DNA of 57,374 nucleotides from contig JAFPWU010000030.1 in NCBI GenBank assembly GCA_017412715.1, positions 1-57,374 on the forward strand, given 5' to 3'. The DNA comes from Clostridia bacterium (lineage in GTDB: Bacteria > Bacillota > Clostridia > Christensenellales > Aristaeellaceae). The position numbers were made by a program, and so were the translations under genes. Below, piece by piece: positions 415-40,079 of this stretch; position 1 is the stretch's first letter, and the number at the start of each line of letters is the position of its first letter. A model generated the notes under the pieces. That model saw only the letters and a list, made by a program, of their open reading frames with translations. It searched no databases and was not told where the DNA came from.

Positions 415-1764
415 ATGATGCAGAAAAACGACCTGCTTTCCCTGCGCGCGGAGAATCTTGGCGCCGACATGGAGGGTGTCTGCCGGCATGAGGGCCTGGC
501 GGTCTTCGTTCCCGGCCTCCTGCCTGGGGAAGAAGCGCCGGTCCGCATCGTTAAAACGGAAAAGCGCTTCGCCTTCGGGAAGCTGGAATCCCTTCCGGCC
601 TCTCCCTCCCCTTTCCGCCAGGAGCCGGACTGCGCGGCTTATCCCCGGTGCGGCGGATGCACCGCCCGGCACATGACCTATGACGCCACGCTGGAAAGCA
701 AGCGAAGGCATGTGGCGGACTGTTTCCTCAGGATCGGGCATCTGGCGGTGGATGTTCCGCCCCTGCTCGGCATGGAGGCTCCCCTGGCCTACCGGAACAA
801 GACCGCCCTTCCCGCCGGGGGAGCCGTACAAGATCCTCAGCTCGGCTTTTTTGCGCCACGCAGCCACCGGCTGATTCCCATGACCGACTGCCCCAACGCC
901 ATGGCTCCCTCCGGGGAGATCGCCCGGGCCGTGCAGCATTGGATGAAGGAATTCCGGATTGCCCCCTACGATGAATCCACGGGCCAGGGAATCCTCCGCC
1001 ATCTGGTTCTGCGGGTCAACCGGGAACACCGGACCATGGTTACGCTCGCCGCCGCGAAGAAGCCCGCCCATCTGGCGGAGCTTTGGGACCGGCTTGAGCC
1101 ACTCGGCGCGGTCAGCCTCTATTATAATGAGAATCCGGACCGGACCAACGTCATCTTCGGAAAGCGGTTCTTCCTTATTTATGGACAGGAAACCCTTTCC
1201 GACACACTCTGCGGACTGCAGTTCGAGTTGTCCCCCGCCTCCTTTTTTCAGGTGAACCCCTCCCAGACCGAAATCCTCTACCGGACCGCGCTGGAGTTCG
1301 CCGGGCTTCACCCCGGGGACACCCTATGCGATGTCTATTGCGGCGCGGGAACCATCTCCCTGATGATGGCGGAGCACTGCCGCCAGGTCACCGGGATCGA
1401 AATCGTTCCGGAAGCCGTGATCAACGCCCGGGAAAACGCGGAGCGGAACGGCATCCGCAACGCGGTCTTCCATCAGGGAAAGGCGGAAGATCTGCTTCCC
1501 CGGATGGTAAACGATGGGCTCCGGCCGGAGGTCATCGTAGTGGATCCACCCCGGAAGGGGCTGGAGCTCTCCGTCATTGACGCCGTCGCCCAGGCCCGGC
1601 CGGACCGCCTGGTCTATATTTCCTGCAATCCCGCCACCCAGGCCCGGGACGCCGCCCTGCTGAAGGAACGGGGCTACGAAATCCGCCGCATCCAGCCCGT
1701 GGACATGTTCCCTTTTACTTCACACATAGAGACTATAGTGTTGCTACAAAGACAGAACTCGTAG
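415..1764 (+). CDS. rlmD: 23S rRNA (uracil-5-)-methyltransferase, RlmD/RumA family
   Basis: S-adenosylmethionine-dependent enzyme that makes 5-methyluridine in 23S rRNA (RlmD/RlmCD type). An N-terminal TRAM-like RNA-binding domain is followed by the iron-sulfur cysteine pattern CAAYPRCGGC, the SAM-binding motif DVYCGAGT, the motif DPPRKG and the catalytic-Cys motif YISCNP. GGAGGA at 405-410 supports ATG 415 or the adjacent ATG 418; the in-frame extension to 262 lies upstream of the ribosome binding site and is not family-like. The last residues, HIETIVLLQRQNS, lie in the known integration hotspot at the 3' end of rumA genes, so they may be supplied by the inserted element and not be the original host end. 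Confidence 0.9.
   Translation: MMQKNDLLSLRAENLGADMEGVCRHEGLAVFVPGLLPGEEAPVRIVKTEKRFAFGKLESLPASPSPFRQEPDCAAYPRCGGCTARHMTYDATLESKRRHVADCFLRIGHLAVDVPPLLGMEAPLAYRNKTALPAGGAVQDPQLGFFAPRSHRLIPMTDCPNAMAPSGEIARAVQHWMKEFRIAPYDESTGQGILRHLVLRVNREHRTMVTLAAAKKPAHLAELWDRLEPLGAVSLYYNENPDRTNVIFGKRFFLIYGQETLSDTLCGLQFELSPASFFQVNPSQTEILYRTALEFAGLHPGDTLCDVYCGAGTISLMMAEHCRQVTGIEIVPEAVINARENAERNGIRNAVFHQGKAEDLLPRMVNDGLRPEVIVVDPPRKGLELSVIDAVAQARPDRLVYISCNPATQARDAALLKERGYEIRRIQPVDMFPFTSHIETIVLLQRQNS
1717..1745 (+). other. Attachment-site-like segment 1 at the rlmD 3' end
   Basis: Encodes HIETIVLL at the end of rlmD. Clostridial and streptococcal integrative elements are known to insert at this place in rumA. Two more segments encoding HVETVLLM (5091-5119) and IETVLLM (6638-6663) occur in the next 5 kb. 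At DNA level, segment 1 shares mainly the GAGAC core with them, whereas segments 2 and 3 share 23 identical bases. The recombination point is inferred, not mapped. Confidence 0.6.
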
Positions 1765-1910
1765 AAATCCTTTATTTTAAGCACTTTTACGAGCATTTCA
1801 CCTTTGGTGAGACAGACTGGTCAAAGAGGGGTAAACGCCTCGAAAAGTACCTCCGGGTGGCCATCGCCATAGAACTCGTAACAGTAGGAACAAGGATCGA
1901 GGACTTATAG
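1722..1910 (+). pseudogene. Short element-end ORF fragment, unknown function
   Basis: A second reading frame opens inside the rlmD tail and runs to TAG at 1908-1910. The part after the attachment core reads as a plausible 55-residue C-terminus rich in charged and aromatic residues (for example HFTFGETDWSKRGKRLEKYL, then RVAIAIELVTVGTRIEDL). No start codon with a ribosome binding site is visible. I read it as the tail of an element gene left at the left junction. I do not recognise the family. Confidence 0.4.
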
Positions 1911-1932
1911 ACAACTGAATATCTGATCGATC

Positions 1933-1980
1933 ATGGACGTTTATGAACTGCATTTCCGCAGTAAATAGACGTCCATTTTT
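1933..1980 (+). terminator. Hairpin plus T-run upstream of repA (terminator or attenuator)
   Basis: ATGGACGT at 1933-1940 pairs with ACGTCCAT at about 1969-1976, with partial pairing of the flanking A/T bases, and is followed by TTTTT. It sits about 40 bases before repA. It either ends transcription coming out of rlmD or attenuates repA. Confidence 0.6.
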
Positions 1981-2015
1981 GCGTTTACGGAAGAAATGAG
2001 AAAGGAGGAGAGCGG

Positions 2016-2954
2016 ATGGAGTTTGATTACTTCTATGGACCGGAAGATGCAGAACAATATCAGTTTTACCGGATCCCGAAGCTGCTGATCACCAGTGATC
2101 AGTTTAAAGATGTTTCCGTCGAGGCAAAGCTTTTATACGGCCTGATGCTTGACCGTCTCTCCCTGTCCATAAAGAACGGATGGTTTGATGCGCTCAACCG
2201 GGCGTATATCATCTACACCATTGATGAAGTCATGGAAGATATGCACTGCCGGAGCCAGAAAGCCTGCAAGCTCGTTGCGGAGCTGGAAAAGACAGCCGGT
2301 CTGATCAAGAAGAAGCGTCAGGGGCTTGGAAAGCCGTCTTTGATCTATGTTCTGAAGTTTTCCACAAGTTCTCCACAGAACTCTTCAGAATCAAAACTCT
2401 TGAATTTTGAAAATCAAAATTCTGGAGATGTGAAAATCAAAAATCAAGAATTTCGCAAATCACAAGGTAATAAAACTAATCAAAACAAGACTGAAATTAA
2501 TAAGACTAATCCTATCCTTCTATCCGTGAATGTCGCAGGAATGGACGAGGATTCTGATGAGATGGGAGAGGATCCGATGGAATCCAGAAAATCTTATGAG
2601 AAATATTTCAGATACCGTCTTGCGATTGATGATCTCAAACAGAGCTATCCGTATGATCACGGACGCATTGATGAAATCCTAGAGCTGCTTGTCGATACAG
2701 TCTGCAGCACAGCCAAGACGATCCGATGCGCCGGGGAAGACAGACCTGCGGAAGTTGTGAAAAGCCGGTTCATGAAGCTGGATTACGGACATATCCAATA
2801 TGTCCTGGACTGCATTCATGACAATACGACAGAGGTCCGGAATATCAAGGCATATATGCTGACGACGCTATACAATGCGCCGATTACCATTGATCACTAT
2901 TACCAGACGAAAGTGAACCATGACATGTATCACCGGGACGGAGGAGGAAGCTGA
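2016..2954 (+). CDS. repA: RepA_N-family replication initiator of an integrative element
   Basis: 312 residues. The N-terminal 120 residues match the RepA_N (PF06970) winged-helix initiator type: FYRIPKLLIT, LLYGLMLDRLSLS, IYTIDEVM, then a lysine-rich segment ending in IYVLKF. This family replicates plasmids and is common in Tn1549/CTn-type elements of Clostridia. A low-complexity Asn/Lys/Ser-rich linker (about residues 115-170) leads to a separate C-terminal domain. AAAGGAGGAGAG precedes the start. It overlaps parA by one base (TGATG), so the two are co-translated. Base composition is clearly more AT-rich than the flanking chromosome. Confidence 0.85.
   Translation: MEFDYFYGPEDAEQYQFYRIPKLLITSDQFKDVSVEAKLLYGLMLDRLSLSIKNGWFDALNRAYIIYTIDEVMEDMHCRSQKACKLVAELEKTAGLIKKKRQGLGKPSLIYVLKFSTSSPQNSSESKLLNFENQNSGDVKIKNQEFRKSQGNKTNQNKTEINKTNPILLSVNVAGMDEDSDEMGEDPMESRKSYEKYFRYRLAIDDLKQSYPYDHGRIDEILELLVDTVCSTAKTIRCAGEDRPAEVVKSRFMKLDYGHIQYVLDCIHDNTTEVRNIKAYMLTTLYNAPITIDHYYQTKVNHDMYHRDGGGS
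2358..2457 (+). other. Candidate replication origin inside repA
   Basis: Within the linker-coding part of repA are TTTTCCACA (2358-2366), TTCTCCACA (2369-2377), a perfect inverted repeat GAATTTTGA/TCAAAATTC (2402-2410 and 2414-2422) and repeated AAAATCAAAA words up to 2457. RepA_N plasmids are known to carry their origin as repeats inside the rep gene between the two protein domains, which is where this lies. That it is used for replication is inference. Confidence 0.45.
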
Positions 2955-3781
2955 TGAAAGATAAACCAACTGTGATTGCCGTAGTCAATCAGAAGGGCGG
3001 GACAGCCAAGACGACTACGGTAGAGAATCTCGGGATCGGACTTGCCCGGCAGGGAAAGAAAGTCCTCCTGGTGGACACGGATCCGCAAGGAAGCCTGACG
3101 ATCAGCCTGGGATATCCAAGACCGGATGAGCTGGATGTCACCTTATTCGATCTTCTGAATAAGACGATCAATGAGGCTGCAGTGAATGCCGGTGAAGGGA
3201 TCCTGCACCAGCCGGAAGGGATCGACCTGATCCCGGCAAACATCTCGCTGGCAGGTCTGGAGGTTGCCTTGGTGAATACGATGAACCGGGAACGGGTACT
3301 GAAGCAGTTCCTTGAACCCATCAAGGGCAATTACGACTATGTGCTGCTGGACTGCATGCCGAGCCTGGGAATGCTGACAGTGAATGCGCTGGCTGCCGCA
3401 GATGCTGCTCTGGTTCCGGTGCAGGCGAATTATCTTTCAGCCAAAGGATTGGAACAGCTCCTGCAGACGATCAATAAGGTCAAGCGGCAAATCAACCCAA
3501 AGCTGAGGATTGAAGGGATCCTGCTGACGATGGTGGATGGCAGGACGAATTACGGCAAAGAGATCTCTTCCCTGATCCGCGATACGTATGGCGGACATAT
3601 CAAGATCTTCACTGCGGAGATCCCCAGATCCGTCAGAGCTGCTGAGATCAGCGCAGAAGGCAAAAGCATCTTCCTTCACGATCCGAAGGGCAAGGTTGCC
3701 GAGTCTTATCAAGATTTAACGAAGGAGGTACTGAGAAATGCCGAAAAAAGGCGCAAACATCAGCTTGAGCAGCTACGATGA
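2954..3781 (+). CDS. parA: ParA/Soj-type partition ATPase
   Basis: 275 residues. Shows the deviant Walker [12 protein letters not shown] near the N-terminus, the switch region [12 protein letters not shown] and the Walker B-like segment [18 protein letters not shown]. With ParB it would segregate the excised circular form of the element. It follows repA with a one-base overlap and overlaps the start of the parB remnant (3738), so repA-parA-parB was one operon. The partner is truncated, so this copy probably no longer works as a partition system. Confidence 0.88.
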
Positions 3782-3980
3782 CATCTTTTCCACCCAGGAA
3801 AGCAGACAGAAAACCGGTGAACATGTCGTTATGCTGCCGCTGGAGGCAATACATCCCTTTAAGAATCATCCGTTCAGGATCGTGGATGACGAAGAGATGC
3901 GGAAAACTGCTGAAAGCATCCGAGAATACGGCGTCCTGGTTCCGGCAATCGTCAGACCACTGGAGAACGGTGAATATGAA
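3738..3980 (+). pseudogene. parB: Truncated parB (N-terminal part of a ParB/Spo0J nuclease domain)
   Basis: Begins inside the end of parA behind GAAGGAGGTACTGAGA. Residues 24-79 are a normal ParB N-terminus ([19 protein letters not shown], then [20 protein letters not shown] and RPLENGEYE). Where intact proteins continue with a GHRR motif, the sequence switches at about 3975 into another gene whose ATG is 3976; the parB frame then runs out-of-family to a stop at 4031. The DNA-binding helix-turn-helix and dimer domains are missing. Confidence 0.8.
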
Positions 3981-4965
3981 ATTAGAAACCGAACGACTCT
4001 TTCTCCGCCCGTGGGAAGAAAAGGACGCTGAAGAATGCTATAAATACGCAAAGGACCCACGTGTTGGTCCGATTGCCGGATGGCCGGTACATACCAGCGT
4101 GGAAAATAGCCGTCAGGTCATCCGGGATGTTCTGATGGTGCCGGAGACGTATGCCATCGTGCTGAAGGAAACAGATCTGCCCATCGGAAGCATTGGCCTG
4201 CACCATAATGATCTTGCAGAGAAGGACGACGAGGCGGAGCTTGGCTATTGGCTGGGCGTTCCTTACTGGGGACAAGGGCTTGTGCCAGAGGCATCGAGAG
4301 AACTGCTTCGGCATGCCTTTGAGAATCTGAAACTTGCGCGAGTCTGGTGCGGCTACTACGACGGGAACGACAAATCCAAACGGGTGCAGGAGAAACTCGG
4401 ATTCAGATATCAGTGGACTTCCGAAGACGCGCCTGTTCCTCAGATGGGCGAGACGCGAAAAGGGCACGTCAATCTGCTGACCAGAGAGGATTGGTCAGAG
4501 ATGATTACTCCATGCGTTCCTTCCCTTGATGATCTGTGGTTCCGTCAGGCCATGATGGCCGATCCTGAGACCATGTCCTACAACCATGCATGGGGCGGCA
4601 CAATCCCGTTCCCGGAAGACAGCTGGAAAGACTGGTATGATTATTGGATTGTGAACCATGAGAATAAACGTTACTACAGATATTTGAAGAATCCGGCAGA
4701 TCGTTATGTCGGAGAGATCGCCTATCACTACGATGATGACCGCCGTATTTTTGTGGCAGATGTCATCATTCATGGTCCATGTAGGGGTACAGGTTATGGT
4801 GGCAGAGGCTTGGATCTGCTGTGCGATGCCGCAAAAAAGAATGGTGTCGCTCTCCTGTACGATGACATTGCCATTGAAAACCCGGCTATTACGCTCTTTC
4901 TGAAGCATGGGTTTGTCGAAGAATACAGAACAGATGAAATCATCATGTTGAAGAAAGAACTGTAG
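3976..4965 (+). CDS. Two-domain GNAT acetyltransferase (tandem fusion)
   Basis: 329 residues with two GNAT (GCN5-type N-acetyltransferase) units in one frame. Unit 1 (about residues 1-172) is RimJ/RimL-like: it opens [11 protein letters not shown] and has the acetyl-CoA loop [16 protein letters not shown]. Unit 2 (about 178-329) opens [12 protein letters not shown] and has the loop [16 protein letters not shown]. The start ATG sits at the exact point where parB breaks off, and no clear ribosome binding site precedes it (GAACGGTGAAT), so the gene may be translated from within the parB message. The substrate is not predictable. The two units resemble proteins normally found separately, suggesting fusion during element decay, though a native didomain enzyme is possible. 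Confidence 0.75.
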
Positions 4966-5001
4966 GAAGATGAAAGATATGGCGTTTCTGAGGGTGCCGT
5001 T

Positions 5002-5096
5002 ATGAGAATTGAACTGATTGAGCTATCAGAAAATAACTTGCAGCAGTGCTTTGATCTGAATGTTGCAAGCGATCAAAAACAATATCGAGCCATGTT
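5002..5096 (+). pseudogene. N-terminal fragment of another GNAT acetyltransferase
   Basis: ATG 5002 starts a GNAT-like N-terminus (MRIELIELSENNLQQCFDL) of about 30 residues. It stops being family-like exactly where the second rlmD-tail attachment sequence begins at about 5091; the open frame continues meaninglessly to 5178. This is what is expected if recombination at that site cut the gene. Confidence 0.6.
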
Positions 5097-5119
5097 GAGA
5101 CGGTACTTCTTATGTCCCA
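5091..5119 (+). repeat. Attachment-site-like segment 2 (rlmD-tail sequence)
   Basis: In one frame the segment encodes HVETVLLMSQQ, the typical C-terminal motif of rumA genes carrying integrative elements. Bases 5097-5119 are identical over 23 positions to 6641-6663. No rlmD body precedes it, so it marks a former element boundary. Positions 5120-5228 hold nothing else recognisable. Confidence 0.75.
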
Positions 5120-5228
5120 GCAAAACAATCTGTTGTCATATATTTTGCCAAGTATTAATTAGCCTAATTACAATTTGACAAAAATACGGAAATCGGATAT
5201 ACTACGCCTGCAGCAGGAGGTGACGAGT

Positions 5229-6605
5229 GTGTTCTATTTTCGTGATGAAGAGTTCCGGCATCTGGATCAGTTCCTTAACCATCCCAGCGCGAAAGCCATG
5301 GCGGTTTACGGGAAAAGACGCACAGGAAAAACGAGGCTGCTCACAGAATACATCAGCAAAGGACATGGGAAGTACACCTTCCTGTATTATCAGTGTACAA
5401 GCTACGATTACCAGACATGCCTGAAGGATTTCCTGGCTGTAGCCATGCGCCTTTTCCCAAAAGATATCTTCCTTTCGTCCATGCCCTCTTTCAGGGAAGC
5501 AATCTCCCTTTTATCGCAGATACATCCGGAAAACCTCTGTATAATAATTGATGAATTCCCTTTCCTTGCAAAAAAGAATGAAAGCGCTCCCGTTGAATTT
5601 CAATGGCTCATTGATCATGGATTGGGTGCAGACAAGCTGATTCTGTCAGGATCAAATCTTTCTTTTATGAAAACACAGATCGGGAACCTTGAAGCGCCTC
5701 TCTATGGCCGCTTTGACGAGATCATGGAAGTCCGTCCGTTTACATTTCAGCAGGTGCTTTCCCTGTTCCCATCCGCAGAGGATGCAATGAAAGTTTATTC
5801 CATGACAGGCGGCGTGGCGCAATATGTCGTTTTCTTTCTGGAATACCCCTCAGTACAGGAAGCTACCGCTTCCCTGTTCTTTTCCCCGGACGGCCGTCTG
5901 ATCCGGGAAGCTCCGAATATGCTGCTGCAGGAGCTCCGGGATCCCACCACATATGAGCAGATCCTCCGCGCTATCGGCGGAAGTGATAAAAGCACCCCCC
6001 AGATTGCGGGCCTGAGCGGCCTTGACAGCAAAGGTCTCTCTCCGTACCTGGCCCGCCTGCAGGATCTGCAGCTGGTAGCTCCTGTAGCTAATCCCCTTTC
6101 CACGGAGAAAAGAAAACAACGCTTCCGGATCACAGATGCGCTGTTTCGGTTCCACTATACTTTCATTGAACCGAACATGTCGATGATCAATGCCCTTCGG
6201 GAAAAAGCGATCCATCATATATTGGATCATCGTTATCAGGAATTCATCGGCATTACATATGAGGATATCATTCGTAACAGCTGTTTTCAATATGCCCTGG
6301 ATCACGTCATTCCTTTTATGCCCAATACAACCGGAAAATGGTGGGGCTCTGTCTGCATGGACGGTTCATGGCAGGAATCGGAAGTGGATCTGGTCGCTTA
6401 TGATGATCATCATCTGCTTGTGGGTGAATGCAAATACAGGTCCAAAGCAGCGGGCATACAGGAACTGGATGGTCTGAAGCTGAAAGCTCAGTTTATTCCC
6501 TCCAAAGGTCGGGAACTCTATTATCTGCTTGCTAGCAAAAGCGGTTTTACGCAGGAACTCCGTTCCCTGAAGGATTCACATGTCATACTGATTGATCAAA
6601 TCTGA
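5229..6605 (+). CDS. AAA-type ATPase with C-terminal PD-(D/E)XK-like (DUF234) domain
   Basis: 458 residues from GTG 5229, chosen because AGGAGG lies 8 bases upstream; the upstream TTG at 5175 has no such site. Walker A is GKRRTGKT (27-34) and Walker B is CIIIDEF (D108, E109). A winged-helix-like middle is followed by a C-terminal segment EVDLVAY...LLVGECKY, matching the (E)xD...ExK core of PD-(D/E)XK nucleases. This family (archaeal ATPase/DUF234) is widespread, often on mobile DNA, and lacks an established function. It fills the space between attachment segments 2 and 3 and so looks like the cargo of a small or deleted element. Confidence 0.8.
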   Translation: MFYFRDEEFRHLDQFLNHPSAKAMAVYGKRRTGKTRLLTEYISKGHGKYTFLYYQCTSYDYQTCLKDFLAVAMRLFPKDIFLSSMPSFREAISLLSQIHPENLCIIIDEFPFLAKKNESAPVEFQWLIDHGLGADKLILSGSNLSFMKTQIGNLEAPLYGRFDEIMEVRPFTFQQVLSLFPSAEDAMKVYSMTGGVAQYVVFFLEYPSVQEATASLFFSPDGRLIREAPNMLLQELRDPTTYEQILRAIGGSDKSTPQIAGLSGLDSKGLSPYLARLQDLQLVAPVANPLSTEKRKQRFRITDALFRFHYTFIEPNMSMINALREKAIHHILDHRYQEFIGITYEDIIRNSCFQYALDHVIPFMPNTTGKWWGSVCMDGSWQESEVDLVAYDDHHLLVGECKYRSKAAGIQELDGLKLKAQFIPSKGRELYYLLASKSGFTQELRSLKDSHVILIDQI

Positions 6606-6637
6606 TCCCGTTGAATATGTTCCGCCGGATCACTTTC

Positions 6638-6787
6638 ATCGAGACGGTACTTCTTATGTCCCAACAGAAGCCAGACGACACCATTCATGTGGGAATCGAC
6701 CTGAAACCTGAAGATATAACGGTGGCCGAAAGCAAAGCCACTTATCTGTCGCAAAATATGCGACAGTTGAGGCAGTACAGCAATTGA
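6638..6787 (+). pseudogene. Attachment-site-like segment 3 with rumA C-terminal extension
   Basis: From 6638 one frame reads IETVLLMSQQKPDDTIHVG and continues IDLKPEDITVAESKATY. This is the C-terminal extension that integrative elements add to rumA genes in Clostridia. Bases 6641-6663 repeat 5097-5119 exactly. After KATY the frame leaves the family and stops at 6787. It is a leftover right or left end of an element that once fused to rlmD. Confidence 0.75.
6746..6766. repeat. Perfect 8-bp inverted repeat near the element end
   Basis: CTGTCGCA (6746-6753) and TGCGACAG (6759-6766) separated by AAATA. It lies exactly where the rumA-like extension loses its reading-frame similarity. It could be a recombinase or regulator binding site; the sequence alone cannot decide. 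Confidence 0.5.
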
Positions 6788-6824
6788 TGAAATGAAAGAA
6801 TCCATAATTGACGGGAGGTTTATC

Positions 6825-6929
6825 ATGAATCATAAGGAAAGAATGCTGGCCGGTCTGCCATATAAAGCCTGGATGGACGGCTTGAGTCAGGAGCGTCTGG
6901 ATTCCGGTCCCGGGGGACCGTTGAAATGA
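6825..6929 (+). pseudogene. Fragment of a maltose/sugar O-acetyltransferase
   Basis: GGGAGG precedes ATG 6825. The first 24 residues (MNHKERMLAGLPYKAWMDGL and following SQER) are the typical start of maltose O-acetyltransferase (Mac domain). The frame then turns into unrelated residues and stops at 6929. More than 80% of the gene is missing, so it is a deletion scar. Confidence 0.65.
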
Positions 6930-6969
6930 CCGAAGCAAAGCTTTTATGAAAAAATTATCAAAAATCTCC

Positions 6970-6996
6970 CTGCGTAAGGTATTGCTTGTTACGCAG
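6970..6996 (+). promoter_or_regulatory. Dyad operator upstream of the MerR-type gene
   Basis: CTGCGTAA (6970-6977) and TTACGCAG (6989-6996) form a perfect 8-bp dyad with an 11-base spacer, about 40 bases before the regulator gene. MerR-type proteins bind such dyads between -35 and -10 boxes. I cannot identify the boxes confidently. Self-regulation is inferred from position. Confidence 0.5.
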
Positions 6997-7036
6997 CGTC
7001 ATGTTGCAGGATACATGGCGAAAGGAGGCGAAGGCT

Positions 7037-7762
7037 ATGTCAAAATACACGACGGGAGAGCTTGCAAAGCTCTGCGGCGTCACTGTCCGGACGGTTCAGT
7101 ATTATGATACCAGAGGCATCCTGATTCCCAGTGAGCTTTCCGAAGGCGGAAGGCGGCTCTACTCGGAAGACGATCTGAAGCGCATGAAGATTATCTGCTT
7201 TCTTCGGGAACTGGATCTTTCCATCGACGCGATCTCTCAGATCCTGAAGGAAGAGCATCCTGAGAAGGTGATATCCCTGCTGATTGAACAGCAGGAAACT
7301 GATCTTTCGGATGAGATTTCCGAGAAACAGGAAAAGCTGGAAAAGCTTCGTGAACTGAAAAACGGACTGAAGGGCAAAGCAGACTTCTCTCTCGAAACCA
7401 TCGGTGACATAGCCGTCATTATGGAAGGGAAGAAAAAGCTGAAAAGAATGCGCTGGATGATGATCCTGACCGGAATTCCGGTCACGGCGCTGCAATGGTT
7501 TTCCATCATTTTCTGGATCGTCAGAGGCATCTGGTGGCCTTTCATCATCTGGGTGCTGGCGGCTGCTGTCTGGGGTACAGCGGTCAGCCATTACTACTTC
7601 AATCATGTAAAATACATCTGCCCGGAATGCCACGAGATATTCAAACCCGCCCTGAAGGAAGCCTTCTGGGCAAATCATACGCCAACCGCCCGCAAGCTGA
7701 CCTGCACCGGATGCGGGCACAAGGGCTTCTGTGTCGAGATCTGGGGAGGTGACGATAAATGA
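7037..7762 (+). CDS. MerR-family regulator with two membrane segments and a zinc ribbon
   Basis: 241 residues; ATG 7037 follows AAAGGAGGCG. Residues 3-70 are a MerR winged helix (YTTGELAKLCGVTVRTVQYY, then GRRLYSEDDLKRM). Residues 75-112 are a charged coiled-coil-like segment. Two hydrophobic stretches follow (about 139-161 and 164-184), then two Cys pairs (C195/C198 in CPEC and C223/C226 in CTGC) that should form a zinc ribbon. Ordinary MerR proteins are soluble, so this one is probably held at the membrane and senses something there or through its zinc site. Its stop overlaps the next gene by four bases, so the two probably act together. Confidence 0.8.
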   Translation: MSKYTTGELAKLCGVTVRTVQYYDTRGILIPSELSEGGRRLYSEDDLKRMKIICFLRELDLSIDAISQILKEEHPEKVISLLIEQQETDLSDEISEKQEKLEKLRELKNGLKGKADFSLETIGDIAVIMEGKKKLKRMRWMMILTGIPVTALQWFSIIFWIVRGIWWPFIIWVLAAAVWGTAVSHYYFNHVKYICPECHEIFKPALKEAFWANHTPTARKLTCTGCGHKGFCVEIWGGDDK

Positions 7763-8577
7763 CGGAATTCGAGAATATCGTCATTGGCAAAAGCAGCGTA
7801 CCGTCGCTCATCATCACGGTCGTTCTGATGATCGCCATTCCCGCTGCCTTTTTCATCTACTGGCGCAGGAAGCATAAAGAGCGGACAAAGATCAGCTGGC
7901 TAATTGCCGGCGCGATTGGATTTATCGTTTCCGCACGTGTTCTGGAACTCGGCGTGCACTACGTCTGCATTATTGCGGACAACCCGGTTTCTCGATTCAT
8001 CAACGGAAACACTGCCGCTTTCGTCCTTTACGGAATCATCATGGCGGGCGTTTTCGAGGAGTGCGGGCGGCATATCGTTCTGAAATACATCCTGAAAAAG
8101 AACCGCACCCGTGAAAATGCGGTCCTGTACGGCATCGGCCACGGCGGAATTGAGATTCTGACGGTTCTTCTGCCGGCTATAATCCTCTATCTTGTCATTG
8201 CGGTGCTGTTTTCCCAGGGAGATACGGCCAACGCGATGAAGGCCCTGAACATCACGGAGGAGACCGCAGCCGCAGCGCTTCCATCCGTTCAGGCCGCAGC
8301 CTCGTTTGATTATGCCATGATGGCCATGAACGTCATTGAACGGCTGCTGGCGATGCTCCTCCATATCGGGCTGACGGTCATCGTGTATTACGGCGTCATC
8401 AACGCAAAGAAGGCATATCTTCCGATGGCGGTCCTGCTGCATATGCTGATGGATACATTCCCCGCTTTGTACCAGAGAGGTGCGGTTCCGCTATGGTCAG
8501 TCGAGGTCTGGGCCGCCGTATGGACTGCCGTAATTGTATTCATCACCGGGAAACTATACAGGAAGATCAAGGCCTGA
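7759..8577 (+). CDS. YhfC-family polytopic membrane protein (putative intramembrane protease)
   Basis: 272 residues with about seven hydrophobic segments. The motifs FEECGRHIVLK, GIGHGGIE and LHMLMD supply Glu and His residues inside or beside membrane segments, the pattern of the YhfC family (PF10086), which is related to CPBP-type intramembrane metalloproteases. The start overlaps the MerR-type gene by four bases (ATGA). Proteolytic activity is suggested by the motifs and not proven for the family. A simple model is that one protein controls or processes the other at the membrane. Confidence 0.75.
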   Translation: MTEFENIVIGKSSVPSLIITVVLMIAIPAAFFIYWRRKHKERTKISWLIAGAIGFIVSARVLELGVHYVCIIADNPVSRFINGNTAAFVLYGIIMAGVFEECGRHIVLKYILKKNRTRENAVLYGIGHGGIEILTVLLPAIILYLVIAVLFSQGDTANAMKALNITEETAAAALPSVQAAASFDYAMMAMNVIERLLAMLLHIGLTVIVYYGVINAKKAYLPMAVLLHMLMDTFPALYQRGAVPLWSVEVWAAVWTAVIVFITGKLYRKIKA

Positions 8578-18791: not shown

Positions 18792-19727
18792 TCAGAACAG
18801 CGCGCTCTCAGCTTCGATCCGGCGGACGACGGCGTTGGCCGTCAGCACGCAGACGAAGCCGGCAATCGACTGGATGAAGCCTGCCGCGGACGCCCGGCCC
18901 AGATTGTTCTCCTCCATCAGCCCCCTGTACACATAGGTATCGATGGTGCAGGTGGTGTTGTACAGCATGCCCGAATTCATCGGCACCTGATAGAAGAGGC
19001 CGAAATCCGAATAGAAGATATGCCCGATGGAGAAAAGGGTCAGCGTAATGATGACATGCTTGAGCAGCGGCAGCGTGATTCTGAAGATGCACTGGAACTT
19101 GTTGGCGCCGTCCACCAGCGCCGCCTCATACAGCGCCCCATCGAAGCCGACGATGGTCGCGTAATAGATGATGCTGCTGTAGCCGAATGATTTCCACAGA
19201 TAGACCGCGGTGATGATATACGGCCAGTGCTTATCCTCCGTATACCAGGAGACCGGAGCAATCCCAAGGGGCCTCAGAATGGAGCCGTTGATCATGCCGT
19301 ATTCCCCCCCGAAGAGGGCGTAGACGATATAGGCGATAATCACATAGCTCATCAGGTGCGGAATCAGGATCAGGGTCTGAAAGGTCTGCTGCATCCGCTT
19401 GCTCCGCAGCTCATTCAGCAGGACCGCCACCGCAATGGAAAGCACCGTTCCGAGCACGATGAAGGCCAGGTTATACAGCAGGGTGTTCCGCAGGAGCAGC
19501 GACAGATCCCGGCTGTTGACCAGGAAGGTGAAATTCTTTACGCCCACCCAGGGGCTTCCCCATACGCCTTTGGTATACTTGAATTTTTCAAAGGCCATCA
19601 TCAGCCCCGGCATGGGCATATAGTTGTTGATCACCAGATAAACCAGCCCCGGAACCATCATCACATAAAGCGGAAGAAAGCGCTTCAGGGGAAGCTTTTT
19701 CCGGAGCGGTTTCATTTTCATCGTCAT
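18792..19727 (-). CDS. CUT1 ABC sugar permease, YteP/LplB-like
   Basis: 311 residues, about six membrane segments, with the coupling-loop motif EAALVDGANKFQCIFRITLP. The protein type (PGLVYLVINNYMPMPGLMMA near the N-terminus) matches the permeases that, with DUF3502-type binding proteins, import pectin-derived (rhamnogalacturonan) oligosaccharides in Bacillus. Located 19 bases downstream of the esterase gene. Confidence 0.87.
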   Translation of the reverse strand: MTMKMKPLRKKLPLKRFLPLYVMMVPGLVYLVINNYMPMPGLMMAFEKFKYTKGVWGSPWVGVKNFTFLVNSRDLSLLLRNTLLYNLAFIVLGTVLSIAVAVLLNELRSKRMQQTFQTLILIPHLMSYVIIAYIVYALFGGEYGMINGSILRPLGIAPVSWYTEDKHWPYIITAVYLWKSFGYSSIIYYATIVGFDGALYEAALVDGANKFQCIFRITLPLLKHVIITLTLFSIGHIFYSDFGLFYQVPMNSGMLYNTTCTIDTYVYRGLMEENNLGRASAAGFIQSIAGFVCVLTANAVVRRIEAESALF

Positions 19728-19746
19728 GATGAAAGCCTCCCTGCCC

Positions 19747-21312
19747 TCATTTCAGGCCGTGGGAAACGGCGAAAGCATCCAGCAGCACCTTCATGACCGG
19801 GGAGGGATCTGCTTTTGTCCGCTCCGCTGTTTCTCCGAATTCCATCCGCCAGGGCGTATCCTCGCCAAGCCTGGGCCAGTTTGGAAGCATTTTTCCGTCG
19901 GTGCCCATCCCGTTGGGATTCCCCGTTCTCATGAAGTTCGCCCAGTAGTCGCACATCTGCCGGGACAGATCGTAATGCTTTCCGGTGAATACCCGCCAGC
20001 ACTTGGCCAGATTCTCAAAATAGAACCAGATGTCGCTGGAATGGAAGCAGCCGGGATGATCCCAGCCGGGAATCTCCGCCGAGAAGCGGCCCATCCAGAC
20101 CGGGCTCTCCAGGGATTTCGCCATGGCATGCCCCGCCATTTCGATTCCGGAGACCGCCGCCGCGTCCAGAATGGCTTCCGGATCCTCCAGCCCCTCAAAC
20201 AGCTTCAGGAAGGCGTTCCGATCCAGGCCTTCCAGGCCGGCCGCCAGCTTTTCCAGGTCCTCCCTGGACTTCAGATTCCGGGGCCGCATGATCATCTCGA
20301 TATCCGTCGAAGTCATGAACACGGGACAGTCGATATGTCCGGGCTGGAGGAACCATTCATAGGCGGGGCCGTTCATATACACGCCGTCGATCACGGAATC
20401 AAACCAATGGGGCGGCATCTGATTGGCCGCTTCCAGAATCGCCTCCGCCGGGATCTTCCGGGCTTCCTCGATCGTGCGGACCCCCAGTTTTTCCAGGAAG
20501 ACTTTTCCGTGTTCCTCTCCGCCGGCCAGATCCGTTCCGAAGATGAATTTCGGCGCATAGGCGGGAATGAAAACCGCGCTTTCCAGCACCGCCCGCCGGA
20601 ACAGCCCACGGTTAGCCGGATTGGCCAGATGCACGCAGACGCTCATGCCGCCGGAGGACTGACCGCCGATCGTGATATTCCCCGGATCCCCGCCGAAGGC
20701 CGCGATATTCCGTTTGACCCATTTCATCGCAAACTGCTGATCCAGGAAGCCGAAATTGGCGGGCGCGGCGGGATCCTCCCGGGTCAGATCCGGATGGCTC
20801 AGGAATCCGAACGCGTTCAGCCGATAATTCACCGTGACCACGACCACCCCGCGGCGGGCAATTCTCTCTCCGTCAAACTCCATCTCCGCCGTATTGCCGA
20901 CCTGCAGTCCGCCCCCGAAGAACCAGACGAAAACCGGCAGATTTCCGGGTTTCTTTACGGGATCGTCCTCATGCTTCCTGTACTGTTCCGCATCCCCGAC
21001 CGCGTATCCGTCGGCCGGCGCCCAGACGTTCAGGTACAGGCAGTCCTCGCTCATAGGCAGATCAAAGTCCACCGCCCATTCCCGGGACCAGAAATTGTCC
21101 CGCCCCGGCTTCCCCTTATCCTGCATGGAGATCGGGCCGAATTCGTAAGCCTTCAGCTCCCCTTCCCAGTCCTGGCAGGGCTGAGGCGCGCGCCACCGGT
21201 TTTCGCCCACGGGCGGAGCCGCGAAAGGAATCCCCTTGAAACTGGTAATCCGGGGATCCGAAGCCGGAAGGCCCCTGATCAGGCCGTTTTCTGTGCGTAC
21301 AACACGGTTCAT
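19747..21312 (-). CDS. Type-B carboxylesterase
   Basis: 521 residues of the para-nitrobenzyl/carboxylesterase type: SEDCLYLNVWAP, the oxyanion-hole segment VFVWFFGGGLQVGN, YRLNAFGFL, and the nucleophile elbow GGQSSGG with Ser219. Most family members have GESAGG; the E-to-Q and A-to-S changes next to the nucleophile are unusual but keep G-x-S-x-G. No signal peptide, so it would act on imported substrates, for example acetyl or methyl esters on pectic oligosaccharides (inference from context). GGGGAGGTTAGTTT precedes the ATG. First gene of the operon facing the LacI regulator. Confidence 0.85.
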   Translation of the reverse strand: MNRVVRTENGLIRGLPASDPRITSFKGIPFAAPPVGENRWRAPQPCQDWEGELKAYEFGPISMQDKGKPGRDNFWSREWAVDFDLPMSEDCLYLNVWAPADGYAVGDAEQYRKHEDDPVKKPGNLPVFVWFFGGGLQVGNTAEMEFDGERIARRGVVVVTVNYRLNAFGFLSHPDLTREDPAAPANFGFLDQQFAMKWVKRNIAAFGGDPGNITIGGQSSGGMSVCVHLANPANRGLFRRAVLESAVFIPAYAPKFIFGTDLAGGEEHGKVFLEKLGVRTIEEARKIPAEAILEAANQMPPHWFDSVIDGVYMNGPAYEWFLQPGHIDCPVFMTSTDIEMIMRPRNLKSREDLEKLAAGLEGLDRNAFLKLFEGLEDPEAILDAAAVSGIEMAGHAMAKSLESPVWMGRFSAEIPGWDHPGCFHSSDIWFYFENLAKCWRVFTGKHYDLSRQMCDYWANFMRTGNPNGMGTDGKMLPNWPRLGEDTPWRMEFGETAERTKADPSPVMKVLLDAFAVSHGLK

Positions 21313-21336
21313 AAACTAACCTCCCCTGTCATTGAT

Positions 21337-21348
21337 ATTTTGCAAAAT
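21337..21348. promoter_or_regulatory. Palindromic operator candidate, esterase side
   Basis: ATTTTGCAAAAT is a perfect 12-bp palindrome with a central CG-type axis (GC), 25 bases before the esterase start. It shares the TTTGCA half with the dyad at 21486-21523 beside the LacI gene. LacI-family operators are short palindromes, so both are candidate sites for the divergent regulator. Confidence 0.55.
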
Positions 21349-21485
21349 CGTTTTTGCTTTCTGCTGACCTTATTATAGCCACAACCCCGCCCGCTGTCAA
21401 TCCCTTTTGGGGATTCTTTTTGTATCCGACCGTATTCATCCCAGAAAGCACAATTCATTTTGTCGGTCAAAATAGCAAAAACATA

Positions 21486-21526
21486 TTTGCATATCTATTG
21501 ACATCCGCCGGCATTTATGCAAAGAT
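21486..21526 (+). promoter_or_regulatory. Promoter of the LacI-family gene with overlapping operator dyad
   Basis: TTGACA (21498-21503) and AAAGAT (21521-21526) are 17 bases apart. TTTGCATA (21486-21493) and TATGCAAA (21516-21523) form a perfect 8-bp dyad that straddles the promoter, suggesting the regulator represses its own transcription. Confidence 0.55.
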
Positions 21527-21597
21527 ACCTGTTGGGGATACAGACCTGAATCAATAAAGGACGGATGCCGGCATACCACCGCCGGGCGGGATGAATC

Positions 21598-22617
21598 ATG
21601 GAAAAGAACAGGGTAGGCTTAAAGGAAATCGCAGAGCTTTCCGGCATGAGCGTCGGAAACGTTTCCATGGTCCTGCGCGGTCTGGGAGATGAAGCCCGGA
21701 TCAGCAAGGCCAGCCAGGAAAAGATTCAGAACGCCGCCAGGCAGCTGAATTACAAGCCCAACGTATACGCGAAACGGCTGCGGATGAAGGCGGATCGCAT
21801 GATCGTCGCCGTCTTTTTCGCCTCCTCCCGGCATCTCTCCGTGATGGGGGCCTTCTTCTCCGGTATTCATGAGCTGTTAAGCGGAACCGGAGACATGAAG
21901 CCGGAGATCACCCTCTATCCCTATACTCAGGGCCAGCTGGACAGGATGGACTCCGTGATTCGCGAAGAGTGCTTCAACGGCGCCATTTTTATGGGGATGT
22001 CCTCCGAGGATATGGACTATCTCGAAACCGTCCGGATCGATACGCCCATCGTTGTGTTCAACCGCATTTCAAAGATCCATCACTACGTCTACGCGGACAA
22101 TCAGAACGTCGGGGAGCTGGCCGCGAGGCTTTTCTCCCGGGCCGGAGACGCCGGAGTCTGCCTTGTTTCCGGCCGGAAGCTGTCCACCGCCGGCAGGGAG
22201 CGCCGGGACGGTTTCATCGGGGAATGCGCCCGCCTCGGGATCCCGCTGCCCCCGGAAAGGATTCTGCAGGTCACGCCGGGCTATGAAGGCGGCCGGGAAG
22301 CGGCGGAAGCCGTCGCCGCCTTCGGGGATTCCTGCCGGGCCGTTTTCTTCTCCGACGATCAGATGGGAATCAGCGCGCTGCATGAGCTGCTGATCCGGGG
22401 GATCCGGGTGCCGGAGCAGATCAAAATCATCTGCTACAACGGCTCCAACAGCGATATGTATTCCATTCCCTCCCTGTCCAATATCCGGATTCCGCTGGAG
22501 GAGATCAGCAGGGACTGCCTGGTCCTGCTGGACAAGGCGATCCGGAATCCCGAAAGCGGACAGATGAATATCGTCCATAAGCCGATTCTGATCCTTCGGG
22601 AAAGCACTGGCGCATAG
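21598..22617 (+). CDS. LacI-family transcriptional regulator
   Basis: 339 residues. N-terminal helix-turn-helix (GLKEIAELSGMSVGNVSMVL) and hinge helix region (ASQEKIQNAARQLNYKPN), then a periplasmic-binding-protein-like effector domain. It is divergent from the esterase-ABC operon and upstream of the PL11 lyase, with shared TTTGCA-type palindromes in the 285-base intergenic region. It likely represses the pectin-oligosaccharide genes until an inducer sugar binds. Confidence 0.88.
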   Translation: MEKNRVGLKEIAELSGMSVGNVSMVLRGLGDEARISKASQEKIQNAARQLNYKPNVYAKRLRMKADRMIVAVFFASSRHLSVMGAFFSGIHELLSGTGDMKPEITLYPYTQGQLDRMDSVIREECFNGAIFMGMSSEDMDYLETVRIDTPIVVFNRISKIHHYVYADNQNVGELAARLFSRAGDAGVCLVSGRKLSTAGRERRDGFIGECARLGIPLPPERILQVTPGYEGGREAAEAVAAFGDSCRAVFFSDDQMGISALHELLIRGIRVPEQIKIICYNGSNSDMYSIPSLSNIRIPLEEISRDCLVLLDKAIRNPESGQMNIVHKPILILRESTGA

Positions 22618-22703
22618 CCGGCGCGGATTTCCCCGAAATCAATTCCCGCTGTTTCTCTGAACCTCAGCGCAGGCTTCAGGGCTTACGAGGACCGATGGAC
22701 GCA

Positions 22704-22734
22704 GCCTGTCCCCCGCGGACAGGCCGCTTTTTTT
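22704..22734 (+). terminator. Rho-independent terminator after the LacI gene
   Basis: GCCTGTCC (22704-22711) and GGACAGGC (22717-22724) with a short loop, then CGC and seven T residues. Confidence 0.8.
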
Positions 22735-22752
22735 CATGCAGGAAGAAAACAT

Positions 22753-22789
22753 CGAAAGCGATTCCATCTCCCGCCGTTTGTGATATACT
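22753..22789 (+). promoter_or_regulatory. Extended -10 promoter with cre-like site before the PL11 gene
   Basis: TGATATACT (22781-22789) is an extended -10 box. CGAAAGCGATTCCA (22753-22766) matches the CcpA catabolite-repression consensus at about 12 of 14 positions and overlaps the weak -35 position. Carbon-catabolite control is inferred. Confidence 0.45.
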
Positions 22790-22869
22790 GTTTCCGCAAG
22801 AAAAAACACCCGGCATTTGTAAAAAAACCTTCCGGAAAATGAGGATCAGAACAGGATCAGGAAAGAGGG

Positions 22870-25701
22870 ATGAACAGCATGCGGAAAATGGAACGGCTGA
22901 ACCGGGGGCTGATTGCGGCCCGGCTGGAAAAGGGCATGTATCTGAGCTGGCGATATCTGGGCAACGAGCCGGACGGCATCGCCTGGCGGATTTACCGGAA
23001 CCGCGGAACCTGGGAAAAGCTGGCGGACATCCTGCCCCGGGACGTAGCCCCGGAGAGCCATTACCCGGAGAATCCCGGCATCGTAAAGAAGAACACCACC
23101 CCCTGCTGCTACATCGATCCGGAGGGCACGCCGGAGGACCGGTACGCGGTCTGCCCCGTGATCGACGGGGTGGAAGGCGCCCGGGAGGAGCCCATGCTGC
23201 CGGTGCTGGAGCCGCTGGCTGGGGCGGAAGGCCAGGCCTTCCGGGCCGCGGTGCACCGGATTCCCATGTGCCCGCCGCCGGAAAGGGTGCCGCTGGCGCA
23301 TTTCAGCTACCGCGGCGTATCCGTGGGCCCCGGGTGCAAGCCGGATCCCGCGGTCTTCCGGCTGGAGAACGGCGAGGACTGGTACCGGGTGGATATGGAT
23401 CTGCTGCGGTCCTTCCGGGAACCCTATGAGAACGGGGAAATTGTAACCCTGGAATGGCTGGACGGAATCCGCGGGAAGCTGGAGGCATATCTCGGCGAAC
23501 CCCTGGCGCTGCACGGCAGCCTGGAAAATGGACGGATCCCTGAGGATCTGTACCGGGAGCTGGAAGCCGCGTTCATCCGGTACGTCCGGCAGCTGGACAG
23601 CGGAGAATCGCTGCCCTTCGCCCGCACTGCGGAGGGCGCGATCGAGACATCCCTGTCCGCCGCCTACCAGACCCAGGACATGAGCGTGGGCGACTTTGAC
23701 GGGGACGGGGAGTACGAGATCGTCGTGAAGTGGCGGGCGGAAAGCCCGGACCCCATGTTCTCGGATCCGATCTACCGGTCCGACTTCAACCTGAGCGCGC
23801 CGGAATACATCGACGTATACAAGCTGAACGGAAAGCTGCTGATGCGCATCGACATGGGCTACAACGTGAAATCCGGCAATGACCACGAAACCATGCTGCA
23901 TGTGCAGGATTTCAACCGGGACGGACGGGCGGAGATCATCCTGAAGAGCGCCCCGGGCACCCGGATCGGCTACTGGGACGAGGCGGAACAGCGCGTCGTT
24001 TACCCCCATGACGAGGCGCACGTGGTGGGCGGCGCCGACGGCCTTCAGTGCACGACGGACCAGTTCATCCGCTATTTCGCGGAGGGCAATGAGGCGGAGC
24101 TGAAAAAGCGCTGGTCGCTGCTCAACAATTTCGATATCTGCTACCGGTCCCCCGTGCGCTCCTCCGACAACGACGGGCCGAACGATCCCGCTCAGAAGGC
24201 CTGGATCAAATCCTACCACATCGGGCCCATGGGCCCGGGGCACCGGGAATACGTCAGCGCCATCGGGTACGACGGAAAGCAGGGCGTGCTGCTGGATACC
24301 GTGGACTACGCCTTCCCCTGGACCCAGGTCGCATCAGACGGGGACAGCTTCGCCCTGGATCCCATGACCCAGCGGGGCAACTTCTGTACGATCGTCACCC
24401 CCCTGCCCGGAGCGGATACCATGGACAGCTACAAGGTGCAGGTCATGCAGAAGAAGGACGGCTATTTCCTGTCCCACCGGTGGAAGTATCCGGTATGGGG
24501 CGACGGCCAGGGCAACCGGGCCAACCGCTACGCGGGGGGCGTCGCCTGCCTGGACGGAGAAAACTACTATGCCGTGATCCAGCGGGGGTATTACCAGCGG
24601 ACGACCTTCGCGGCCTACACGATGCGGGGCTCAAAGCTGATGCCCCCCGCAACCTTTGACTCCGAGGATCCCGCCTGCTGGACGCTGGGCGAGGGACCGG
24701 AGCTTTACCGGGCCCGGGGCAACCACTTCACCGACATGGCGGATATCGACGGGGACGGCCGGGACGAGGTCATCCTGAAGGGCATGAACCTGAAGCTGTC
24801 CGAGGACGGGAAGCATCTGCTTCCCCGGGTCCTCTGCGGGGATATTCTGCCCATGCTGGGCGGAACCGGAAAGCAGCCGGCCTTCGGCGAAAATCTGGCC
24901 ACGGAGGCGATCCGGACCACAGCGGGCAACTTCTGGGCCGGGCTGCAGCACGGAGACCGCAGCGCCCTGCTGCCCGTAAACGCGGAGGGAGACATCCGGC
25001 TCTATTCCGGCACGGAGGAGTATACCCTGGACAACCGGCATACCGGCGAACAGTTCGGCTGGCTGCCCGGACCGGAAGCCCATGACCCGAACAGAGGACT
25101 GAGGTGGCGGGACGGAAAGCTGGTCCGGGAAAGCTCGCTGGTCTTCGGTGAATTTTCCGGGGACGATGACGAGGGCTCCGTGGCCGGAAACTTCTCCAAC
25201 CGCTGGGCCGGCGCCATGGCGGGCGGATCCGAATGCGGCCATCGGGTGCGGAGCCTGGTGGACGGACGGGTGCTGACCGAGACGGACTGCGAGCGGGGCA
25301 TCCCCCAGGGCGAGAACGCCGTGTGGTTCGGGCCGGGGCTGACCCACTGGGCCTGCAACGGGAGCGAAATCCATGTGCCTGATCCGGATACGCTGAAGTT
25401 TGAGCCCTATCTGACGACGGGACTGATTTCCACCGGCGGCAAGAAGACGCCCACGCTGAAGGCGGATCTGTTCGGAGACTGGCGGGAAGAGCTGATCCTG
25501 ACGGACGGAGGGAACCATATCGTCATCGTGCGGACCCTGGCGCCCACCGAATACGGCATCCGCTGCCTGATGCACGATCCCTGGTACCGCAACTCCGCGG
25601 CCAACCAGAACATCTGCTATAACCAGGTGGGATTCGCCTCCTTCTATCTGGGGGACGAAGCGCCGCTGCCGGAGAAAAGGAACGATCTCTGTTTTGAATA
25701 A
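22870..25701 (+). CDS. PL11 rhamnogalacturonan lyase, no signal peptide
   Basis: 943 residues. Polysaccharide lyase family 11 type: N-terminal MERLNRGLIA and YLSWRYLGNEPDGIAWRIYR, then repeated calcium-binding turns DFDGDGEYEI (about residue 275), DFNRDGRAEI (347) and DIDGDGRDEV (624), which belong to the beta-propeller that holds the RG-I backbone. It cleaves rhamnose-galacturonate linkages by beta-elimination. It is longer than the usual 600-odd residues because of an extra segment at about 140-260. No signal peptide is visible, so like B. subtilis YesX it probably works inside the cell on imported oligosaccharides. The start may instead be ATG 22879. Confidence 0.87.
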   Translation: MNSMRKMERLNRGLIAARLEKGMYLSWRYLGNEPDGIAWRIYRNRGTWEKLADILPRDVAPESHYPENPGIVKKNTTPCCYIDPEGTPEDRYAVCPVIDGVEGAREEPMLPVLEPLAGAEGQAFRAAVHRIPMCPPPERVPLAHFSYRGVSVGPGCKPDPAVFRLENGEDWYRVDMDLLRSFREPYENGEIVTLEWLDGIRGKLEAYLGEPLALHGSLENGRIPEDLYRELEAAFIRYVRQLDSGESLPFARTAEGAIETSLSAAYQTQDMSVGDFDGDGEYEIVVKWRAESPDPMFSDPIYRSDFNLSAPEYIDVYKLNGKLLMRIDMGYNVKSGNDHETMLHVQDFNRDGRAEIILKSAPGTRIGYWDEAEQRVVYPHDEAHVVGGADGLQCTTDQFIRYFAEGNEAELKKRWSLLNNFDICYRSPVRSSDNDGPNDPAQKAWIKSYHIGPMGPGHREYVSAIGYDGKQGVLLDTVDYAFPWTQVASDGDSFALDPMTQRGNFCTIVTPLPGADTMDSYKVQVMQKKDGYFLSHRWKYPVWGDGQGNRANRYAGGVACLDGENYYAVIQRGYYQRTTFAAYTMRGSKLMPPATFDSEDPACWTLGEGPELYRARGNHFTDMADIDGDGRDEVILKGMNLKLSEDGKHLLPRVLCGDILPMLGGTGKQPAFGENLATEAIRTTAGNFWAGLQHGDRSALLPVNAEGDIRLYSGTEEYTLDNRHTGEQFGWLPGPEAHDPNRGLRWRDGKLVRESSLVFGEFSGDDDEGSVAGNFSNRWAGAMAGGSECGHRVRSLVDGRVLTETDCERGIPQGENAVWFGPGLTHWACNGSEIHVPDPDTLKFEPYLTTGLISTGGKKTPTLKADLFGDWREELILTDGGNHIVIVRTLAPTEYGIRCLMHDPWYRNSAANQNICYNQVGFASFYLGDEAPLPEKRNDLCFE

Positions 25702-25735
25702 GCGCCGCCGGAGCGCAGAGGAGGAGATGAAACGG

Positions 25736-40009: not shown

Positions 40010-40079
40010 ACCCTTGTTCTCCTGTTCCACCGGCCAGTCCGCCGGTTTTATCGCCGCGTAACCGCGCAAATAAGGTACA

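Follow-up and report, generated by a model that had tools for sequence, protein, structure and literature searches.

Probable remnants of two families of rum-type elements behind rlmD on a contig of a Clostridia bacterium (Aristaeellaceae)

We analyzed a stretch of 57,374 nt (the window: positions 1 to 57,374 of contig JAFPWU010000030.1, GenBank assembly GCA_017412715.1) from a Clostridia bacterium of the family Aristaeellaceae, with emphasis on the region behind the methyltransferase gene rlmD (rumA), where an initial annotation had proposed that integrative elements were inserted repeatedly and then deleted. The source genome is a draft of 1.77 Mb in 36 contigs, 54.7% complete, and the window is its contig C28; the nearest named relatives by rlmD include Clostridia from the gut of roe deer, sheep and goat. 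Gene annotation covered ten proteins, from rlmD to 8.6 kb. The rlmD tail was compared with 109 other loci (three being duplicates), and the rlmD locus with 25 relative loci, among which three pairs come from the same contig, some are only a few kb long, and protein matches at 35% identity or less were left out. The genus sample consisted of 45 genomes, and all counts from it include the window's own genome (G and L numbers are our handles for genomes and loci). The guanine-plus-cytosine (GC) content is 0.61-0.65 in rlmD, 0.42-0.55 in every 500-base window with a start from 1751 to 8501, and 0.55-0.68 from 8751 on. The following features were found.

415-1764, + strand: rlmD (rumA), open (TIGR00479 rumA, 391 bits; comparison of the tail with other loci)
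1705-1733, + strand: putative primary attachment site ATGTTC-N18-GAGAC, encoding MFPxTxHxET; core of the left attachment site (attL)
1729-1808, + strand: predicted left-end arm of a rum-type element, A, consisting of tail A and the block AAATCCTTTATTTTAAGCACTTTT behind the stop codon
2016-2954, + strand: repA, with RepA_N and DUF6017 (Pfam; relatives with tail A)
2954-3781, + strand: parA (Pfam AAA_31; 64-65% to parA in G021, G068 and G061)
3738-3985, + strand: parB', cut after GEYEI (ParB_N positions 2-55 of 95)
3976-5084, + strand: fragment of a GNAT gene cluster, with the second GNAT gene (from 5002) cut at 5084 (match to G019)
5085-5125, + strand: tail B fragment 1, alignable over 5090-5125 (94% to rlmD-tail B junctions)
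5139-6624, + strand: accessory ATPase unit (ATPase_2 and DUF234) with its own flanks (Pfam; homology to G024 and G011)
6617-6645, + strand: rlmD-like site ATGTTC-N18-GAGAC, with its core 35 nt behind the ATPase stop codon
6641-6745, + strand: tail B fragment 2, 105 nt, predicted left end of a CTn5-like rum element (L032, G062)

The last codons of rlmD have been exchanged for a foreign tail, tail A: the GAGAC core of the rlmD site is at 1729-1733, the protein ends in HIETIVLLQRQNS*, and the stop codon is at 1762-1764. Positions 1736-1798 of the arm match four streptococcal phage records, of which three bear rum in their names, at 84-86% identity; positions 1729-1798 match a serine recombinase gene of the Anaerococcus plasmid pAPRE01, at its 3' end, with 79% identity. 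In the two records whose annotations were read, MN270269 and MN270258, repA follows the tail A arm, as it does in the window (repA at 2016). The 24-mer AAATCCTTTATTTTAAGCACTTTT, with two mismatches or fewer, was matched in 13 of 391 genomes of the class, own included, and lies at the rlmD 3' end in 11 of these 13, again including the window's own; the other ten belong to five families, none of which is the window's. Neither rlmD nor a tail is visible in the matching locus L199; in L200 an att-like sequence is present, but the locus breaks off 42 nt upstream, which leaves too little sequence for rlmD to be seen. Because 11 of the 13 matched genomes have it at the rlmD end, this block, variants included, offers a convenient means of detecting such insertions in contigs that lack annotation. 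The ten rlmD-tail A loci have a mean pairwise identity (45 pairs) of 0.57 (0.46-0.71) before and 0.92 (0.72-1.00) after a split placed 3 nt before the core. A scan of viral_contigs for the tail A core gave no match. The locus thus displays an insertion at the rumA/rlmD 3' end in which the C-terminal codons were exchanged, and tail A is, as judged by sequence comparison, the end of a mobile element inserted at this position.

Behind tail A lie repA (with DUF6017), parA and parB, in that order, with parB cut; this left-end set is presumably a mark of the Tn1549-like family of integrative and conjugative elements (ICEs). Intact parB relatives have 307-313 aa and continue past GEYEI, the point of the cut at ~3976-3985, and the parA relatives in G021, G068 and G061 adjoin an intact parB. 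The DUF6017 part of repA was matched behind tail A in L204 and L211 (46% and 55%), so that two of the six loci read downstream of tail A (five of the ten, and L200) have a repA of the DUF6017 type. In the order, RepA relatives were found in 23 of 396 genomes, own included; as a route to an intact element A they were abandoned, since none was reached and no rlmD was present in the stretches fetched. The segment 1729-3985 most probably represents a rum-type ICE at its left end, made up of tail A, repA, parA and parB'. It should be noted that, because repA and parA also have relatives in plasmids and phage records, it is the arm, and not these two genes, that points to an ICE at rlmD. No relaxase, coupling protein or VirB4-type conjugation gene was found among the ten annotated proteins, and therefore only the relic of an ICE is claimed for element A; no large serine integrase spanning a right attachment site was found for it in the annotated stretch.

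Three segments encoding a common rumA-tail motif had been reported, and all three are present. The second and third, in which HVETVLLMSQQ is readable at ~5091 and IETVLLMSQQKPDD from 6638 on, do share 23 identical bases, the exact 23-mer GAGACGGTACTTCTTATGTCCCA at 5097-5119 and 6641-6663; the tail of rlmD itself is not the same tail, having in common with them just the core and the motif that is encoded. With three mismatches or fewer, the 23-mer occurs in the window at these two places only, and none of 100 dinucleotide shuffles gave two occurrences; the repeat extends to 29 nt at 93%. In L032 (RGIG4336, with an rlmD 72% identical to that of the window), rlmD is fused in frame to a 101-aa tail with the window's QQKPDD sequence, and TnpV (PF14198) is next to this tail B; the rumA fusion and the TnpV neighbor are the basis of the label "CTn5-like". 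The congener G062 has an rlmD-tail B fusion of identical type, up to the contig end. Between L032 and G062, 113 of 150 nt are identical before the core versus 141 of 141 after it; the core therefore marks the crossover, and the identity behind it a recent transfer. Of the 105 nt of the copy at 6641, 101 are shared with L032 and 101 with G062, as expected for descent from the tail open reading frame (ORF). Fragment 1 is 94% identical to the junctions of rlmD and tail B in L032 (over 36 nt) and in G062 (over 35 nt), and the copy at 5097 matches these two at 28 of 29 nt from the core on. The window has no in-frame fusion of rlmD to tail B with TnpV, a feature present in L032, but only fragments away from rlmD. 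Within the genus, the 23-mer was found in 3 of 45 genomes and the tail family in 8; beyond it, relatives of tail B occur in 95 plasmid records and 11 phage records, and a scan of viral_contigs for the 23-mer gave no match. By these comparisons, 5085-5125 and 6641-6745 derive from the left end of another rum-type element (tail B, CTn5-like), distinct from element A.

The DNA between the tails may have a different origin. Positions 3977-5084 are 88.8% identical to a contiguous stretch of the congener G019 (contig C11), within a run of GNAT-like genes, and the left edge of this block overlaps parB over ~9-10 nt that fit both sides. The GNAT genes were dropped as candidate element cargo, since G019 carries the block as an ordinary cluster, and it appears to be ordinary congener DNA. 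The ATPase ORF runs from 5175 or 5229 to 6605; DNA homology of the unit covers 5139-6596 in G024 and extends up to 6624 in G011. Relatives of the unit are present in 8 of 45 genus genomes, including congeners that have no tail B, and the gene is also near rlmD in G024 (within 4.3 kb) and G011 (~6.5 kb); in G010 it is on a contig other than that of rlmD. With homologous flanks in congeners, and no tail B there, the ATPase gene was likewise dropped as element cargo. Thus, of the compartments proposed in the initial annotation, repA-parA-parB' holds as the left end of element A, whereas the ATPase and GNAT pieces find no support as cargo. Gene pieces do end near the repeated segments, as had been claimed, but not exactly at them: the GNAT homology stops at 5084 rather than 5091, the match to the rumA extension ends at 6745, and parB is cut as well. 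Consistent with the reading of the segments as insertion boundaries, none of the 25 rlmD loci compared has the window's repA, parA and GNAT genes, and the ATPase gene is found in just two of them (L123 and L125).

A look for an integrase in relatives had been suggested, and one was found there. Relatives of the recombinase of pAPRE01 (E up to 1e-40) occur in 3 of 45 genus genomes, the window's own not among them. In G063, an rlmD tail 47% identical to that of L032 starts at C15:1809, and an integrase with Resolvase, Recombinase and zinc-ribbon domains ends in ...LAETVVLLTRENG*, an rlmD-like tail, at ~C15:19849. This segment of ~18.0 kb, four proteins of which were searched in Pfam, is apparently a complete element, with both ends and the integrase present; a DUF1015 gene lies 3 kb on from the integrase end. 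The integrase of G004 ends in ...VENVALLSRKMF*, likewise an rlmD-like tail, and DUF1015 starts 75 bp later. DUF1015 would be the native neighbor of rlmD: the two are on one stretch in 11 of 27 loci scanned, in ten of them with a shared strand and a distance of 1.2 to 14.0 kb, and in G011 on opposite strands at a distance of 10 kb. The DUF1015 gene of the window (38753-40090) is inverted relative to rlmD and 37 kb away from it.

We consider it likely that elements of two rum-type families inserted here and then decayed, leaving pieces behind rlmD. The 3' end of rlmD would serve as a landing site for elements with a single large serine integrase. Element A, an ICE with tail A, repA, parA and parB at its left end, would have entered through recombination at the GAGAC core; the comparison of loci bears out that the final codons of rlmD gave way to the tail of this element and that the gene thereby stayed open. 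The remainder of A (conjugation genes, integrase and right end) was presumably lost, and parB' probably became joined to the fragment of the GNAT cluster over the few nucleotides that fit both sides. A second rum-type element, the one with tail B and, in a close relative, TnpV beside it, may be the source of two short pieces of a left end, which begin at the same core or a few nt ahead of it, and of which the larger lies at the rlmD-like site behind the accessory ATPase gene; the sequence identity of tail B is directly observed, and from it we infer insertion and loss. What remains would be a scrap heap without an integrase, next to an rlmD that is presumably still functional.

Several points weigh against this explanation. 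The arm of the window has an identity of just 0.66 to the ten rlmD-tail A loci after the split, and 0.50 before it. The repA-parA pair resembles plasmid modules (58 plasmid records) and parA has relatives in 160 phage-collection records, so gene content alone is no proof of an ICE; moreover, rlmD is absent from the fetched stretches around the RepA relatives of the order (29 loci) and from the stretches compared for five parA loci (relatives in G021, G068 and G061). The annotated stretch contains no integrase or right end of either element, and no rum-type integrase was found in the window's own genome, as far as the 54.7% complete assembly represents it. The comparison included no strains of the same species, and hence no empty or intact site from the same species. 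Fragments this short could also be moved by other rearrangements.

How the tail B pieces came to lie away from rlmD can be explained in two ways. In the first, a tail B element inserted at the ATGTTC-N18-GAGAC site behind the ATPase gene, and 6641-6745 is the residue of its left end; we put the chances of this just short of even. The rlmD genes compared here have this sequence or close variants of it. On the + strand of the window, the pattern ATGTT[CT]-N18-GA[GA]AC is found only in rlmD and behind the ATPase gene, and on the - strand once (42817, coding), compared to a shuffle expectation of 0.08 per strand (50 shuffles). In 565 kb of genus loci, some overlapping, the matches outside rlmD are one conserved coding family in six loci, which we take to be DNA polymerase I-like, one other coding site, and two sites in G011 (L125), at 5416 with a tail and at 9128 without; 1.69 Mb of shuffled genus loci had none. 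The ATPase orthologue of G011 has the same site at the same 35-nt distance from the stop codon, followed by unrelated sequence and no tail B. In addition, G007 carries a 73-nt piece of tail B inside a MutS-like gene (named by eye), on a contig where rlmD was not found, and rumA-type ICEs are known at secondary sites, according to the accessible portions of two papers (PMC4320837, PMC4701971). Conversely, the ATPase orthologues of G024 and G010 lack the rlmD-like site, the G007 insertion has no ATGTTC at that spacing, and the G011 flank site is possibly due to chance or to an older, lost insertion; coding regions also hold the pattern. The site before 6641 was also considered as the right arm of an element; this was dropped, because scans did not reveal the pattern where the integrase genes of G063 and pAPRE01 have their 3' ends.

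A broader version of this, that small AAA-ATPase genes with DUF234 or DUF4143 carry a portable landing pad mimicking rlmD (ATGTTC-N18-GAGAC) in their 3' flank, seems rather unlikely. Such a site is seen with a tail in the window and at 5416 in L125, where an AAA_14/DUF4143 gene precedes it, and without a tail at 9128 in L125; in L203, tail A has an AAA ATPase-like ORF (named by eye) behind it. However, two of the three close ATPase orthologues with readable flanks (G024 and G010) are without the site. If true, rum-type elements would insert beside ATPase genes and build stacks next to rlmD rather than in it.

In the second explanation, a tail B element inserted first in rlmD and decayed, and element A then inserted between rlmD and tail B, so that both tail B copies are displaced rlmD ends. 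This is a plausible history to which we assign distinctly less than even chances. In C. difficile, CTn5 lies directly behind CTn7 at rumA, as described in the available part of PMC4320837. In phi-SgaBSJ27_rum, a stretch that is near-identical by eye precedes both tail A at ~52.7 kb and an rlmD-like tail at ~106.2 kb; on pAPRE01, relatives of tail B and of tail A are located at 47.9 kb and 58.75 kb, respectively; and G011 carries a member of the tail family at a distance of 3.7 kb behind rlmD. The sequence upstream of the 6641 copy is nevertheless the flank of the ATPase gene itself, not an integrase or an element end, and the intervening GNAT block is ordinary congener DNA. We slightly favor secondary insertion beside the ATPase gene over a stack at rlmD, without regarding it as proven. 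Accordingly, from the proposal of stacked and then deleted elements we retain the rlmD 3' end as attachment site and two broken rum-type families, and leave aside the stack; the phrase "clear fossil record" was too strong, given that neither the order of the insertions nor whether the elements were ever stacked can be read.

The other two explanations fare worse. An assembly chimera is improbable: the draft is fragmented and incomplete, and contigs of relatives end within ~160 nt of such junctions (L112, L205 and L207-L210), but several independent junctions within 5 kb would all have to be errors, made at repeats no longer than 23-29 nt, and the drop in GC content is continuous to ~8.7 kb. 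That the motif is the generic rlmD 3' end, its two distant copies due to chance or convergence, is refuted for both copies, in spite of the motif being common at rlmD ends, by the 23-mer that shuffled sequences never contained twice and by the near-identity of the 6641 copy to the rlmD tail of a close relative.

Two further features lie behind tail B fragment 2.

6746-6766, + strand: perfect-stem palindrome abutting tail B fragment 2
6825-6929, + strand: possible, weakly matching remnant of a maltose-acetyltransferase-like gene (Pfam Mac, E 0.0046, below the cut-off)

The palindrome, a perfect 8-bp stem CTGTCGCA-AAATA-TGCGACAG, stands exactly at the end of the tail B homology; as a repeat element it was ruled out, being single-copy in the (incomplete) assembly. 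In G011, an ORF resembling an IS605-family TnpB (by eye; L125 2018-3358) lies between rlmD and the displaced tail. In G009 (the contig of L034), a full-length tail (1722-2010) is still fused to rlmD, and ordinary-looking genes come next, with no element gene seen by eye; this tail is perhaps a scar after element loss. Elsewhere in the window, a 16S rRNA gene on the - strand has its 5' end at positions 1-20, identified by what we take to be the 27F primer sequence; contigs commonly break at 16S rRNA genes. A dnaN and a recF-like gene follow DUF1015 at 45.6-47.9 kb. Positions 18862-22889 and 25608-26683 have 96.9% and 96.0% DNA identity to contig C47 of the congener G008, in a block that includes a sugar-type ABC transporter permease and a regulator-like gene; in G008, the end of this block is ~400 bp away from a fragment of a C-terminal tail (C47:11497-11622). 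The shared block may stem from recent transfer or from contamination of G008, which is listed at 4%.

The locus resembles several known systems. In streptococci, according to the accessible part of PMC4701971, single serine integrases target rumA and exchange 3' ends, attR (the right attachment site) lies in the integrase gene, and secondary sites are used. The rumA-type ICEs described there share with the window the target at the 3' end of rumA/rlmD and the acquisition of a new C-terminal tail by the methyltransferase; an attR within the integrase gene is seen here in the congeners G063 and G004. The window differs in having the left end alone, with no integrase or conjugation genes found. 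In MN270258 and MN270269, a methylase comes after repA, in contrast to parA-parB in the window. CTn5 of C. difficile 630 and 630-delta-erm, a member of the Tn1549 family, shuttles between rumA and a secondary gene, joins a tail ORF (CD1844A) to rumA, and can be located behind CTn7, as the available part of PMC4320837 has it; CTn5 is whole and mobile, whereas the window has just left-end pieces of ~36 and 105 nt. In S. suis, ICEs are found in rumA, and tandem accretions occur, for Tn1549-related elements mostly at rplL (PMC7168690, in its accessible part). The records phi-SsuHCJ3_rum, phi-SgaBSJ27_rum and phi-SgaBSJ31_rum share the tail A arm (86%), but are large and combine phage and other modules, unlike decayed fragments. 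The plasmid pAPRE01 of Anaerococcus prevotii has tail B-like and tail A-like arms ~10.8 kb apart, and its serine recombinase gene ends in the tail A-like arm; the differences are that it is plasmid-borne, that the order is tail B and then tail A, and that the recombinase gene is open.

The finding is therefore an insertion hotspot of a known kind in a further genus, with two decayed element families, and not a new system. With it, the known range of the rumA hotspot of streptococci and C. difficile grows by a genus of gut Clostridia, in which, the data indicate, one rlmD end is the target of two tail families. It also suggests that the tail of a left end can remain legible as a scar after the element itself has been lost.

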